This document shows positions 23,900 through 37,806 of a stretch of DNA of 38,271 bases, piece by piece. The notes below the pieces were generated by a model. The model was not told where the DNA came from. It did no database searches and worked only from the letters and a program-made list of their open reading frames with translations. The stretch's first letter is position 1. Each line of letters opens with the position of its first letter. This DNA is from Nitrospirota bacterium (GTDB taxonomy: Bacteria > Nitrospirota > UBA9217): the NCBI GenBank assembly GCA_035516965.1, contig DATIZR010000088.1, positions 1-38,271 on the forward strand, written 5' to 3'. The translations under genes and the position numbers were made by a program.

Positions 23900-25720
23900 T
23901 CAGTCGATCTTTTCCCTGTTCTTCGGCCGCTTGTTCGCTTCGAGGATCTTCTTCCTAAGACGGATCGACTGCGGAGTCACCTCCACGAGTTCGTCTTCCT
24001 TGATGAACTCAAGCGACTGCTCGAGTGACAGCTGACGATGGGGCACGAGCCGGAGCGCTTCGTCGGCGCCCGATGCGCGCATGTTCGTCAGCTTCTTTTC
24101 CTTGATGACATTCACGTCCATGTCGTTCTCGCGCGAATTCTCTCCCACGATCATGCCTTCGTAGACCGCCGTGCTTTCATTGATGAACAGCTCGCCGCGA
24201 GGCTGAATGTGGTAAAGGGCATAGGTCGTGGTCTTGCCTGCCCGGTCAGCCACGAGCGCGCCGGTGGCGCGCTTTGCGATGGGGCCCTGCCATGGCTCAT
24301 ACCCGTCGAAGAGATGGTTCAAAAGGCCGGTGCCCCGGGTATCGGTCAAAAACTCCGAGCGAAAGCCGATGAGGCCGCGCGCCGGGATACGGAACTCGAG
24401 CCTGACGCGGCCGTGGCCGTTGTTCGCCATCTTGGTCATGCGTCCCTTGCGCGTTCCAAGCTTCTGAGTCACTACGCCGATGAAATCCTCGGGGCAGTCG
24501 ATGACGAGGTTCTCCATGGGCTCGTAGGTCTTCCCGTCCCGCTGCTTGGTAACGGTTTCGGGCTGGGAGACTGAAAGCTCGTAGCCCTCGCGCCGCATCA
24601 TTTCGATCAGGATCGCAAGCTGAAGTTCACCACGGCCCAGGACCTTGAAGCTGTCGGTCGCGTCTCCCTTTTCTACCTTGATCGCCACGTTATACAACAG
24701 CTCCTTTTCGAGCCGCTCCTTCAAATGGCGGGAGGTCACGAACTTGCCTTCCTTCCCGGCAAAAGGAGAATTGTTGATCGAGAAGAGCATGGAGATCGTG
24801 GGCTCGTCCACGGCAATGCGCGGCAGGGGCTTCGGGTTTTCCGGGTCGGTAATGGTATCGCCTATGTTTACACCCTCGATGCCGGCAAGGGCCACGATGT
24901 CGCCGACGGTGGCACTGGGCGTATCCACGCGTTTCAGGCCCTCAAACGAAAAAAGCGACGTGATCTTGGTCTTGACCACGGCGCCGCTCGAGGTGACAAC
25001 GCCGATAGGCTCGGCAACCCTTGCGGTGCCGGCAAAGATCTTGCCGATGGCCAGGCGTCCGACATAGTCGTTGTAAATGATGTTCATGACCAGGAGCTGG
25101 AGCGGCGCGGTCTCGTCCCCCTCCGCCGCCGGGACGGTATTCACGATCAAATCAAAGAGCGGCTTGAGGTTCGTCGCTTCATCCTCCATCTTCAGTTTTG
25201 CAATGCCGTCCCGGGCGTTCGTGTAAACGATCGGAAAGTCGAGCTGGGCGTCATTCGCGTCGAGGTCGATGAACAGATCGTACACTTCATTGACGACCTC
25301 GGCGATACGTGCGTCAGGCCGGTCGATCTTGTTGATCACGAGGATCGGCGGCAGACCGAGTTCCAGTGCTTTCTTCAGCACGAACCGTGTCTGCGGCAGC
25401 GGGCCTTCCGAGGCGTCCACGAGCAGGAGCACGCCGTCCACCATTTTGAGCGTACGCTCCACCTCGCCGCCGAAGTCCGCGTGGCCGGGCGTATCCACGA
25501 TATTGATCTTCACGCCATTGTAGTGGAGAGCCGTGTTCTTGGCCATGATCGTGATGCCGCGCTCGCGCTCGAGGTCGATATTGTCCATCACGCGCTCCTG
25601 GATCCGTTCGTTGTCGCGGAAGGTGCCGCTCTGGCGCAGGAGCGTGTCCACGAGCGTGGTTTTGCCGTGGTCGACGTGGGCGATTATTGCAATGTTCCGG
25701 AGATCGTTTCTTTTGAGCAT
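23900..25720 (-). CDS. typA: translational GTPase TypA/BipA
   Basis: A 606-residue ribosome-associated GTPase of full family length. The G domain has G1 HVDHGKTT, the switch region [10 protein letters not shown]3 [11 protein letters not shown], and G4 NKIDRPDAR. The EF-G-like domains II, III and V follow. The TypA-specific C-terminal domain begins in [35 protein letters not shown]. BipA/TypA assists large-subunit assembly and stress or low-temperature growth in bacteria studied. ATG 25720 follows AAGGAT. A promoter is seen at 25889-25918 and a strong terminator after the stop, so it appears monocistronic. Confidence 0.97.
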
Positions 25721-26993: not shown

Positions 26994-28373
26994 TCACTTC
27001 GGTTCCTGCAGTTTTCCGAATGCTTTCAGAACGACCTCGGAGAGGGCCGGATGAATGTGCATTCCCTTGGCCACGGACCACAGGTTGCCGTCAGCAGCCA
27101 TGGCATTCACGACCTCCTGGATCAGGACCGAGGCCTGCGGACCGATGATATGGTATCCCAGGATCTTACCGCTCTTCCGGTGCACCACGGTCTTGGTGAA
27201 CGCCTCGGTCTCCATCATCGCTTCCCCGCGGGCCACATCGGCATACCCGGCCTTTCCCACGAGGACCTCCTGCCTTCCCATGAGTTTGATCGCCTGGCCT
27301 TCCGTAAGCCCCACCGAGGCGATCTCCGGATAGGAGAATACGGCATGGGGCACCGTCAGATAATTCATGCGTGATTTCTTTCCATGGAAGGCATTATGCC
27401 AGACGAGTTCAGCCTCGTGGTTCGCCGCGTGCCTGAACATCTTCCTGCCGATCGCGTCGCCAAATGCCCAGATGTCCTTCTTCGTGGTTTCGAAAAAGTC
27501 GTCCACGACGATATAGCCCCTATCGTCCGTTTTGATGCCGCTGTTCTGAACCATCAGCACGTCGGCATTGGACCGTCTTCCCGCTGCGATCAAGAGCGAT
27601 CCGGCCGCCACCTCGATAATCTTTCCGCTGTTCTGCTGCCGGGCCGTGACCGTCACGACCTTCCCGGTCTGGCGAACCTCGGTCGCCTCGGTGTCGGTAT
27701 GGACGGTCATGCGCCGCGAGAGCGACCGGAGCAGCAGGTCCGAGATCTCCGGCTCCTCCTCGGTCACGAGGCGCGGATTTCTCTGTATGATCGTGACGTT
27801 CGTGCCCATGGCTTCGAAGAAGTGGGCGAATTCGGCAGCGATATAGCCGCCGCCGACGATGACCATGCTGTCCGGACGTTCACGGAGCTGGAGCGCGCTT
27901 TCGTTCGTGAGATACTCGATGCCCTCGATGCCTTTCAGCCGGGGGATGAGCGGGCGCGCTCCGGTGACCAAGAAAATCGTCTTCCCCCTAATCGTTGTGC
28001 CGTTGACTTCGACCTCGTGATCTCCGGTGAACTGCCCCTCGCCGGAATAAAAATCGAATTCCTCCGCCTTGTTCAGGGATTCCTGGATGAGATCGCGGCT
28101 CTTTTGCACATGCAGGCGCATGCGCTCCATGATCGCTTTGAAATCGATGTCTCGTATCTCGGCCCTTATCCCGAGCTTTGCCGCTTCCCTGATCTCGACT
28201 ATTCTATCCGCCGGATAGACCATGATCTTGGTCGGGATTCAGCCGACGTTCAGACAGGTCCCGCCAGCAGGGCCCCGGTCCACAAGGGCAACGGTCTTGT
28301 TGTGGGCGAGGGCGTCTTCGAGCAGGTTCGCGCCGCTGCCCGAACCGATGATGATCACGTCGTATTCTTTCAT
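26994..28373 (-). CDS. FAD-dependent disulfide oxidoreductase, predicted selenoprotein (MerA/Lpd-like)
   Basis: A 459-residue flavoprotein of the dihydrolipoamide dehydrogenase/mercuric reductase group if the in-frame TGA at codon 45 is read as selenocysteine. Residues 1-44 hold the FAD motif IIIGSGSG and GGTCLNVG, then TGA, then IPTK, so the redox pair is Cys40-Sec45. Downstream are the NAD(P)H motif VIVGGGYIAAEFA, the second FAD motif DIWAFGDA, and the dimer-interface HIHPALSEVV with catalytic His and Glu. Without recoding the frame would start at ATG 28223 and lose the FAD site and active centre, which is implausible given the intact remainder. GGAG precedes ATG 28373. It lies 90 bases after addA on the same strand. 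The physiological disulfide or metal substrate is unknown. Confidence 0.88.
28203..28219 (-). promoter_or_regulatory. SECIS-like stem-loop
   Basis: On the mRNA strand TCTATCC-GGC-GGATAGA forms a 7-bp stem with a GGC loop. The loop begins 26 bases after the TGA, within the range of bacterial SECIS elements, and has the required G in the first loop positions. Flanking GATC segments can extend the helix. It recruits the SelB elongation factor in known systems; that role here is inferred. Confidence 0.7.
28239..28241 (-). other. in-frame TGA read as selenocysteine
   Basis: Codon 45 of the FAD oxidoreductase, exactly at the second cysteine of the GGTCxNxGC redox motif. The frame is intact on both sides. 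The gene's own stop (26994-26996) and many neighbours also use TGA, arguing for local recoding. Confidence 0.85.
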
Positions 28374-28463
28374 ACGCTCCGTCCTGCAAAATAAGATTGC
28401 GCCGATCGTTCTCTAATTCTATCATGTTTAAGCGGGGAGTCAATGCAAGGTCAGCGAGGAAGG

Positions 28464-35220: not shown

Positions 35221-35544
35221 ATGGCTGAAGCAGTTACGAGCGCAACGTGGGACCAGGAAGTGCTGAAAGCGCAGGGCCTGGTGCTGGTGGATTTCTGGGC
35301 GGTCTGGTGCGGGCCCTGCCGGATGGTCGCCCCGATCGTGGACGAGATCGCGAAGGAATACGAGGGCAAGCTCAAGGTCCTGAAGCTCAACACGGACGAG
35401 AACCCCGATGTGGCCGGGAAATACCGCATCATGGGTATTCCGACACTGATGTTCTTCAAGGGCGGACAGACCGTTGATCAGGTAGTCGGCGCCGTCCCCA
35501 AGGCCCAGCTTAAAACGAAAGTTGATGCGCTGCTGACGAAATAA
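35221..35544 (+). CDS. trxA: thioredoxin
   Basis: A 107-residue cytoplasmic thioredoxin of standard length. The active site is WCGPC with Cys30 and Cys33 in [13 protein letters not shown]. The cis-proline loop is GIPTLMFF, and the usual [14 protein letters not shown] segment is present. An AGGAGG site precedes ATG 35221. It would be reduced by a thioredoxin reductase; none is encoded in the window, although the selenoprotein oxidoreductase is a flavoprotein of a related superfamily. It follows the ferredoxin gene closely, and a terminator separates it from the next gene. Confidence 0.96.
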
Positions 35545-35612
35545 CGAGCATCGCATCATTCCCGATATTCGTCAGGCAGGCGGTGGAGTGCCGGCCTGGG
35601 AAGCATTCGAAC

Positions 35613-35642
35613 TGCCCGCTTGCCGGCGGGCATGTTTTTTTT
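35613..35642 (+). terminator. terminator after thioredoxin
   Basis: TGCCCGC (35613-35619) pairs with GCGGGCA (35626-35632), then TG and a long T-run. It ends the ferredoxin-thioredoxin unit 25 bases before the next start codon, so the TlpA-like gene is either read through or has another promoter. Confidence 0.8.
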
Positions 35643-35666
35643 CTGCCGCGTAAGGAGAATCCGCCT

Positions 35667-36149
35667 ATGTTCAGGCTTCGTGTGCTGACAGCCGTCCTTG
35701 TTATCGCCGCATTGTTCGCGTGTACCAAGAAAAGCGACCAGCCGGGGATTGCCGCTGATTTTACCCTGCAGGATTTGAACGGAAAGAGCGTGCGGCTTTC
35801 CGATTTCAAGGGCAAGCCGGTGCTGCTCGACTTCTGGGCCACCTGGTGTCCTCCCTGCCGGGCCGCGGTCCCGGGCATCGAAAAGCTGCACGAAACCTTC
35901 AGCGGCAAGGGGCTCGTCGTGCTCGGAATTTCCATGGACGAGGGAGGCTGGGATTCGGTCAAGGCTTTCATGAGTGAGAATCACATGACCTACACTGTGC
36001 TCAAGGGGACCGATGACGTGCTGTCGGAATACCAGGTGAGAACGATCCCCCTGGTTGTTCTTGTGAGCAAGGATGGCAAGGTCGTGAAGCGCTATCTCGG
36101 CTTTGGGGGAGAGGACGAACTGGCCAAGGACATCACGGCGGTTCTCTGA
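35667..36149 (+). CDS. TlpA/ResA-like thiol-disulfide oxidoreductase lipoprotein
   Basis: A 160-residue envelope protein. The signal MFRLRVLTAVLVIAALFAC ends in a lipobox with Cys19, so it should be a membrane-anchored lipoprotein. The thioredoxin-fold domain follows: FTLQDLNGKSVRLSDFKGKPVLLDFWATWCPPC with Cys61/Cys64, VVLGISMDEG, and the cis-proline segment TIPLVVLVSKDGKVVKRYLGF. The CPPC site is typical of TlpA/ResA/CcmG proteins that keep periplasmic thiols reduced, for example in cytochrome c maturation. ATG 35667 is chosen for its AAGGAG site and signal peptide over an upstream open stretch. A short hairpin terminator follows. Confidence 0.92.
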   Translation: MFRLRVLTAVLVIAALFACTKKSDQPGIAADFTLQDLNGKSVRLSDFKGKPVLLDFWATWCPPCRAAVPGIEKLHETFSGKGLVVLGISMDEGGWDSVKAFMSENHMTYTVLKGTDDVLSEYQVRTIPLVVLVSKDGKVVKRYLGFGGEDELAKDITAVL

Positions 36150-36242: not shown

Positions 36243-36318
36243 GCGGGCGTAGCTCAGCTGGTAGAGTACAAGCTTCCCAAGCTTGGGGTCGCGGGTTCGA
36301 GACCCGTCGCCCGCTCCA
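36243..36318 (+). tRNA. tRNA-Gly (anticodon CCC)
   Basis: A full cloverleaf of 76 bases including an encoded CCA. The acceptor GCGGGCG pairs with CGCCCGC. The D stem is GCTC/GAGT, the anticodon stem CAAGC/GCTTG with loop TTCCCAA (anticodon CCC, reading GGG), and the T arm GCGGG-TTCGAGA-CCCGT. Its 3' end adjoins an integrase gene and is the probable attachment site of an integrated element. Confidence 0.95.
36254..36318. other. probable attL region of an integrated element
   Basis: The 3' part of the tRNA gene is shared with the end of a convergent tyrosine recombinase gene. This is the usual arrangement when an island integrates into a tRNA 3' end and the tRNA is restored. The other junction (attR), which should repeat the tRNA 3' end, would be beyond the right edge. 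Confidence 0.65.
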
Positions 36319-37510
36319 ATTTTCTCTTATTAATCCGAGGGTTTAACCTTCGGATTTTTTGTTTGTCCGAGTCTTGTCCGAGTCCCTGTCCGAGTCCATC
36401 GACAACTTCCCGCAGTTTTTGCACATTCAAACTCGCATATCTCCGCGTCACTTCCAGCGAACTGTGACCGAGGGCCGATGATATCCTATCCAGTGAAACC
36501 CCTGCATTCAGTGCCTGAGACGCAATTGAATGTCGCGTAGCGTTGTAAAAATTGATGTACGGCACTTTTGCCTTCTTGCAGGCCCTCTGCCATATCTTGC
36601 GAAGTCCTGATGGTGTATATGGCCTTCCTATCGCATTGAGGAACACAAATGCTTCGGGCAACTTACCCCGCAGTACAGAGCGATCGAACGTAGCGGAGAG
36701 GGGAAGATAATAGGGCTTCTTGTTCTTCCTAGACCGCTCTTCTTTGAGAGAGAACGCCCGGCTGATCTGGACCATTCCAGCGTCAGTCAGGAAGTCCTTG
36801 ACCCGGAGAGCGCGGAGCTCTCCGGGCCGGATCGGGTGATAAATTGCGAACTGAAAAATCGGACGGTCCTTTACGGGCACAGCCGCCAGAATCCTCAGTT
36901 GCACGTCCTTCGTAGTCCAGGTGATAACGGGCTGGGCAGGGGAGATCTCAGGGAATGCCGGCAGCCGAAGCAGGATATCCCGTGATTGGAGCCAACGGCA
37001 GAAGTTCTTGAGCATGACCATGATGTTCTTTTTAGTCTTGTCGCTGCCTTTGAGTGTTTGGAAGAAGTCCTCGATGTGGTAAGTCCGGATGTCGCGGCAG
37101 TCGAGGCGTCCGAAGAAGGGCGTTAACATCTTTTCAATATAACGCTTCACTTCTCGGAGGTGTGAGGGCGCCCTGTTGAGCGAGATCTTTGATTGGTACC
37201 ACTTGGGAAGAAGAGAATGCCCGCGGAATTGGTCGATTTCTTTCGGCAGATAATCGACGATCGAAAATTTCCGCTCATGAATTTCTGCCCGGATGGCTTC
37301 GAGCATGAAATGTGCGCGTCGATAGCTGTCAAGAGGGCGGCTGTCGCGATCCTGGGCGAGCCGATATTCCTTCCCCTGCCAGTAGAGACGGATATAGAAT
37401 GTCTCCGGCTTGATCGCGCAGCGAGGGCAGAAGATGTCCTGCTCTTCGACGATTTTGAACGCGCCGCCGCACTGCGGACATTTCTCCCGGGTCCGTACTT
37501 TGCCGGTCAT
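36254..37510 (-). CDS. tyrosine-type site-specific recombinase (integrase)
   Basis: A 418-residue integrase. A zinc-ribbon-like N-terminus has CPQCGG and CPRC. A core-binding domain follows (about 95-200). The catalytic domain has Arg near 226 in HPIRPGELRALR, the box TRHSIASQALNAG near 325, LGHSSLEVTRRY with Tyr near 358 as nucleophile, and a Lys-rich strand before it. ATG 37510 is chosen because GAGGGAG precedes it; the frame is open 27 codons further. The last ~21 codons (ATGLEPATPSLGS...) are antisense to tRNA-Gly, so the protein tail is encoded by the attachment site itself. It should catalyse integration and excision of the element to the right. Confidence 0.88.
   Translation of the reverse strand: MTGKVRTREKCPQCGGAFKIVEEQDIFCPRCAIKPETFYIRLYWQGKEYRLAQDRDSRPLDSYRRAHFMLEAIRAEIHERKFSIVDYLPKEIDQFRGHSLLPKWYQSKISLNRAPSHLREVKRYIEKMLTPFFGRLDCRDIRTYHIEDFFQTLKGSDKTKKNIMVMLKNFCRWLQSRDILLRLPAFPEISPAQPVITWTTKDVQLRILAAVPVKDRPIFQFAIYHPIRPGELRALRVKDFLTDAGMVQISRAFSLKEERSRKNKKPYYLPLSATFDRSVLRGKLPEAFVFLNAIGRPYTPSGLRKIWQRACKKAKVPYINFYNATRHSIASQALNAGVSLDRISSALGHSSLEVTRRYASLNVQKLREVVDGLGQGLGQDSDKQKIRRLNPRINKRKLERATGLEPATPSLGSLYSTS
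36332..36363 (+). terminator. tRNA-Gly terminator inside the integrase gene
   Basis: AATCCGAGGG (36332-36341) pairs with CCTTCGGATT (36347-36356) with one G-U, followed by six T. It terminates tRNA transcription, yet the same DNA encodes integrase residues on the other strand. Confidence 0.8.
36364..36396. repeat. three tandem TGTCCGAGTC repeats
   Basis: TGTCCGAGTC at 36364-36373, 36375-36384 and 36387-36396, within the integrase 3' coding end (encoding GLGQGLGQDSD). The core TGTCCGA, or its GTCCGAC variant, recurs upstream of the integrase gene. Confidence 0.7.
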
Positions 37511-37806
37511 GGTCCACTCCCTCGAATCAGGGAGAGTATATGTCGTATGTTCGTCCAAAGTCAAGCAGCTGTCGCTCAATGAGAGGTCCATTTCATTGTT
37601 GCAGCCGGGACGATATTACAATTCACTCCTATTGTCCATATACCAAAAAGGGGTATTTTTAAATAGCTTCATGCCCTGTCTGACGCGTCCGACATTTGAC
37701 GGACACGCAATATTATCCGAATATCAGTTAATTGCGAGCCGTTCTTAACATTTTCCCCTATACATTTTTCAAGGTTGTCCGACAAGGTGTCCGACGCCAT
37801 TTCTTC

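Follow-up and report, generated by a model that had tools for sequence, protein, structure and literature searches.

Flavoprotein disulfide reductases of the glutathione and lipoamide reductase type are textbook enzymes, and in glutathione reductase the second cysteine of the redox pair is the charge-transfer thiol. The best-known selenocysteine-containing relative of these enzymes is mammalian thioredoxin reductase, which, like thioredoxin-glutathione reductase, belongs to the same flavoenzyme superfamily and carries its selenocysteine (Sec) in a C-terminal GCUG tail, remote from the flavin. CoA-disulfide reductase/NADH oxidase belongs to another subfamily, whose members have just one redox residue, and mycothiol, to which mycothione reductase owes its name, is an actinobacterial thiol. 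We know of no Sec in the haloarchaeal bis-gamma-glutamylcystine reductase (GCR). This NADPH-dependent reductase of a low-molecular-weight disulfide was formerly misannotated as MerA, and its homologues go under the name dihydrolipoamide dehydrogenase (PMC7278568). A Sec-containing CoA-disulfide reductase/NADH oxidase (TIGR03385, motif UGxP) has been described as an FAD-dependent oxidoreductase selenoprotein (PMC13188914, Table 1); the FAD enzymes of that 2026 inventory are this one and a sulfide:quinone reductase with an HxxU motif (PMC13188914). Two candidate precedents were considered and rejected: the entry 'putative mercuric reductase' in the inventories denotes a metal-binding protein with a UxxU motif (NF041115), and a paper on Chloroflexi with matching words deals with formate dehydrogenase.

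The locus reported here lies in a window of 38,271 nucleotides, the whole stretch of DNA analysed, which comes from a member of the Nitrospirota. On its minus strand, a single frame of 459 codons leads from ATG 28373 to TGA 26994 and contains one internal TGA, at codon 45 (28241..28239). An earlier note on this DNA had read in the frame an FAD motif (IIIGSGSG) and GGTCLNVG, then the TGA in place of the second Cys of GGTCxNxGC, then IPTK and 410 further residues, and the translation is exactly as it claimed. It had also predicted that a standard pipeline would miss the active site; indeed, the only ORF reported for the gene by a caller using translation table 11 is one of 409 residues (26994..28223). 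A GGAG/AGGA ribosome-binding sequence precedes ATG 28373, with none before the internal ATG 28223, and pairwise comparison of six UGA-containing genes reveals purifying selection of equal degree on codons 1-44 and on codons 58-459 (pN/pS about 0.2-0.5 in either part). Judging from the sequence and its context, the gene very probably encodes a selenoprotein, with the UGA of codon 45 read as Sec. The features of the locus are listed in table 1.

Table 1. Features of the disulfide reductase locus, with positions in the window.
Feature	Position	Strand	Basis
Predicted selenoprotein gene: class I pyridine-nucleotide disulfide oxidoreductase of 459 residues with putative Sec45	26994..28373	-	frame, domains, AlphaFold2, fold
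In-frame TGA, predicted Sec45, flavin-proximal partner in the CxxxxU redox pair	28239..28241	-	seven genes have TGA at this codon, the other homologues examined a codon for Cys
Codon of Cys40, putative interchange thiol	28254..28256	-	invariant in 25 aligned sequences; no other Cys in the protein
Putative Shine-Dalgarno sequence AGGACGGAG before ATG 28373	28377..28385	-	sequence read directly
SECIS-like hairpin (G)UCUAUCC-GGC-GGAUAGA(A)	28202..28220	-	loop and the 6 bp next to it unchanged in 7/7, two outer pairs covary
Gln197-Arg198, putative determinant of NADPH over NADH	27780..27785	-	Nitrospirota orthologues have Q-R, most Chloroflexota homologues E-M
Catalytic dyad His441 to Glu446 (HPALSE)	27036..27053	-	aligns with HPxxxE of glutathione, lipoamide and mycothione reductases
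typA/bipA, downstream neighbour	23900..25720	-	TIGR01394 above cut-off

The disulfide reductase gene is flanked by addA and addB upstream and by typA downstream, and the order of disulfide reductase followed by typA/bipA on the same strand recurs in eight genomes of the family, in Sec and Cys forms alike; these neighbours give no pointer to the substrate or function of the enzyme. Elsewhere in the window, genes for a thioredoxin (35221-35544, plus strand) and a ResA/TlpA-like thiol-disulfide protein (35583-36149, plus strand) lie about 7 kb off, and a redox link between them and the disulfide reductase is possible. A tRNA gene (36243-36315, plus strand) overlaps the 3' end of a gene for a XerC/XerA-like tyrosine recombinase (36254-37591, minus strand), an arrangement like that at the border of integrated elements.

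The encoded protein combines the domains Pyr_redox_2 and Pyr_redox_dim, and its AlphaFold2 model has a mean pLDDT of 94. Mycothione reductase is both the closest solved fold (Z 46.5, rmsd 2.0 over 449 aligned residues) and the closest solved sequence (37% identity); MerA, lipoamide dehydrogenase and glutathione reductase come next in fold, with Z 42-45. With its FAD/NAD(P) and dimerisation domains and this fold, the protein belongs to the class I pyridine-nucleotide disulfide oxidoreductases, and the CxxxxC redox pair and His-Glu dyad of the class are found as Cys40-x4-Sec45 and His441/Glu446. None of the NCBIfam equivalog cut-offs is reached by the window protein: the scores are 374.4 bits against 635.65 for TIGR03452 and 411.4 against 501 for NF005884 (both mycothione reductase), and 75 against 579 for TIGR03385. 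The best NCBIfam model, NF004947, is nearly reached (590.6 against 592 bits) and bears the name dihydrolipoyl dehydrogenase (PRK06292.2-5), so that the selenoprotein might be taken for the E3 component of a 2-oxoacid or glycine-cleavage complex. We regard this as unlikely, since the protein falls below the cut-off of TIGR01350, the dihydrolipoyl dehydrogenase model (353.4 against 408.8 bits), whereas another gene in the genome exceeds it with 517.5 bits (L025) and is the better lipoamide dehydrogenase, and since the neighbours addA, addB and typA are not accompanied by E1 or E2 genes. Moreover, Gln197-Arg198 replaces the Glu typical of NADH-binding members of the family, which suggests NADPH as the cofactor.

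The other enzymatic alternative is that of a Sec-containing mercuric reductase acting on Hg(II) or another metal, for which it may be said that mercury is bound by selenium and that MerA is both homologous and structurally close to the window protein. This, too, appears distinctly improbable, as the MerA model TIGR02053 gives 329.1 bits against a cut-off of 454.45, the protein retains the His-Glu dyad typical of disulfide reductases, and no mer genes were found among the window neighbours checked. Furthermore, Cys40 is the only cysteine of the protein, and the C-terminal vicinal pair of MerA is therefore absent. The dyad, the NADPH-type arginine and the lack of the C-terminal MerA cysteines together make a small disulfide a likelier substrate than a metal, and we lean towards a low-molecular-weight disulfide of these bacteria as the probable substrate. 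Where the earlier note had left the choice between a disulfide and a metal, the former thus stands and the latter has become less likely.

The reading of codon 45 as Sec draws, in the first place, on the recurrence of the TGA. A scan of 396 Nitrospirota genomes, with a pattern that detects Sec solely within GGxCxNxGUxP[ST]K contexts, revealed TGA at this codon in seven of them, with no match to the reversed control pattern. All seven genes, one in each genome and a divergent paralogue included, come from a single Nitrospirota family, that of the window genome itself, where they occur in half of the sampled genomes (7/14); the remaining genomes of the 396 yielded none, nor did any turn up in 400 genomes of the phylum sampled around the loci L036 and L038. 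The seven span 48-100% identity, the orthologues ranging from 77% down to 61% and the paralogue standing at 48-49% relative to the window protein. The other close homologues examined have Cys in the same column, as the earlier note had expected of the family. The sequences are from metagenome-assembled genomes; the presence of the same TGA in seven of these means that neither an error in sequencing nor a nonsense mutation of recent date can account for it, and the suspicion that the true codon is TGC or TGT is answered by its repetition in other genomes.

The genome also has the means to insert Sec. In the assembly to which the window belongs (3.8 Mb, 98% complete), we found a tRNA-Sec (62.4 bits, above the Rfam cut-off; anticodon TCA according to ARAGORN), two copies each of selA and selB, and selD, so that selA, selB, selC and selD, named by the earlier note as genes to look for, are all present. 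Across the family, tRNA-Sec occurs in 13 of the 14 genomes and a full-score SelB in 11, implying that the Sec trait is family-wide and extends to genomes with the Cys form of the enzyme. The selD gene of the window genome (L096, G000:C86:4133-5059, minus strand) has an in-frame TGA of its own (LSSCAG-TGA-A), which makes it a second selenoprotein gene in the genome and an internal positive control. The duplicated selA and selB lie at two loci of the one assembly, L095 (G000:C71) and L094 (G000:C42), with the selB of C71 at a contig end, and reflect either a real duplication or strain contamination (estimated at 2.95%).

Some bacteria have reassigned UGA, and readthrough or reassignment to another amino acid (e.g. 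Trp, Gly or Cys) is a rival to Sec. TGA, however, terminates 11 of the 15 clear genes of the window, including the disulfide reductase gene itself, and is thus an ordinary stop in a standard genetic code; this, the Cys of the homologues at the column in question, and the combination of complete Sec machinery with a SECIS-like hairpin render such a reading very improbable.

Bacterial SECIS elements are marked by a guanosine in a small apical loop of a stem-loop situated just downstream of the UGA (PMC1088965). A stem-loop of this kind lies 26 nt past the UGA here, with a G-led apical loop GGC whose first base is 27 nt past it, and each of the seven UGA genes has the potential to fold into (G)UCUAUCC-GGC-GGAUAGA or a near variant. 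The core CUAUCC-GGC-GGAUAG is identical in every one of them, including the 48%-identical paralogue, and with it the loop GGC and its leading G. The underlying Tyr-Pro-Ala-Asp (positions +8 to +11) is encoded as TAT CCG GCG GAT in 7/7, the longest codon-invariant run of the gene, and codon identity amounts to 0.90 over YPADR compared with 0.51 gene-wide. As only 11% of the 142 residues invariant across the seven proteins use the same codon throughout, conservation of the protein does not explain that of the hairpin. The Cys orthologues of the family use different codons for what are mostly the same residues, and the hairpin is absent from them. Two outer pairs vary on both strands (UA to CG, with a UG form, and GC to AU), and when the partner strand is slid by 1-3 bases, pairing falls from 95% to 27-48%. 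A shuffle control of the covariation gave 15/500, a figure obtained with seven sequences only. Gene by gene, synonymous-recoding tests of hairpin stability, based on folding energies of the 6-bp core, gave individually modest values of 0.6% to 11%, and the case for the RNA element thus leans on its conservation across genes. An Rfam scan of the window returned no SECIS match, only a tRNA. The TGA of selD in the same genome is followed by a strong hairpin, UGUCCCAG-GUC-CUGGGACA, in which CCCAG-GUC-CUGGG has the same build with a G-led apical loop of three bases. Outside the family, UAUCC-GGC-GGAUA still stands at the site of the SECIS in two Cys homologues (L036:3001-4365 and L037:3001-4368), possibly as a remnant of a Sec-containing ancestor, or by chance; either gene follows two conserved genes in an operon-like arrangement.

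Against this background, the notion that the TGA is a true stop or nonsense mutation, leaving the gene broken or yielding only a 409-residue product from ATG 28223, is scarcely credible: a standard gene caller does return exactly this ORF, but its product would have lost the dinucleotide motif for FAD together with the two redox residues, the ribosome-binding site is at ATG 28373 and absent at 28223, the 44 codons upstream of the TGA are under purifying selection, seven genomes have the same TGA, and a hairpin is conserved after it. The interpretation of the gene as encoding a selenoprotein oxidoreductase, advanced in the earlier note, is accordingly well supported by the Sec genes of the genome, the Cys column, the repeated TGA and the conserved hairpin.

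In the protein tree, Sec and Cys forms are interleaved, and the well-supported branches force at least five changes between the two; the Sec form of genome G007 and the Cys form of G010, both of the same genus, are sisters. The paralogous branch likewise holds both forms, with Sec in L090 (G011:C209:581-1945) and Cys in L091:6047-7405 (minus strand, G007). In both paralogues, the catalytic His441 is replaced by Phe, a substitution that suggests a different acid-base mechanism or a different substrate.

A plausible course of events can be sketched by extension from the mechanism of the family. SelB and Sec-tRNA(Sec) would bind the hairpin, Sec45 would be inserted, and a full-length flavoprotein would result that may work like mycothione or glutathione reductase. 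NADPH would reduce FAD, and the reduced flavin would in turn reduce the Cys40-Sec45 selenenylsulfide. Cys40, presumably nearest to the substrate and made reactive by the partner subunit's His441-Glu446 dyad, would then attack the substrate disulfide, while Sec45 would contact FAD, form a charge-transfer complex and resolve the mixed disulfide. Given the role of the second Cys in glutathione reductase, the selenium would here lie against the flavin; by this analogy, Sec45 is predicted to replace the charge-transfer thiol proximal to the flavin and to leave the interchange thiol as Cys. It may also speed the reduction of the substrate, as the earlier note had conjectured.

No CxxxxU enzyme of the lipoamide, glutathione or mycothione reductase type appears among the 119 prokaryotic selenoprotein families and subfamilies of the 2026 inventory (PMC13188914, Table 1), and in the open-licence literature we found no earlier description of Sec in a bacterial lipoamide dehydrogenase, mercuric reductase or pyridine-nucleotide disulfide oxidoreductase. 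We therefore regard the enzyme as a new Sec variant within a known family of enzymes. We are fairly confident that it constitutes a new selenoprotein family and the first class I flavoprotein disulfide reductase with Sec as the flavin-proximal charge-transfer thiol. On this reading it occurs in two paralogous branches within a single Nitrospirota family, and the additional loss of the catalytic histidine in one branch implies that the catalytic cycle is modified there. Standard annotation would disguise such genes as ones for truncated proteins. The close Sec and Cys orthologues within a genus (G007 and G010), in which the hairpin is present or absent in step, offer naturally matched pairs.

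Compared with the known systems, the window protein has the FAD motif, the CxxxxC-type site and the His-Glu dyad in common with mycothione reductase (8qcj, 9lc9, 8rx5), but that enzyme has its second Cys where the window protein is predicted to have Sec, and the window protein remains under the cut-offs of the mycothione reductase family. GCR is a useful analogue; haloarchaeal plasmid proteins annotated as dihydrolipoyl dehydrogenase are 41-42% identical to the window protein. SelD of the same genome is alike in its UGA and hairpin and unrelated in its protein family. Unlike mammalian thioredoxin reductase, finally, the window enzyme has no GCUG tail and its Sec would be proximal to the flavin, and a natural enzyme with selenium beside the flavin would directly test what selenium contributes at the charge-transfer site.
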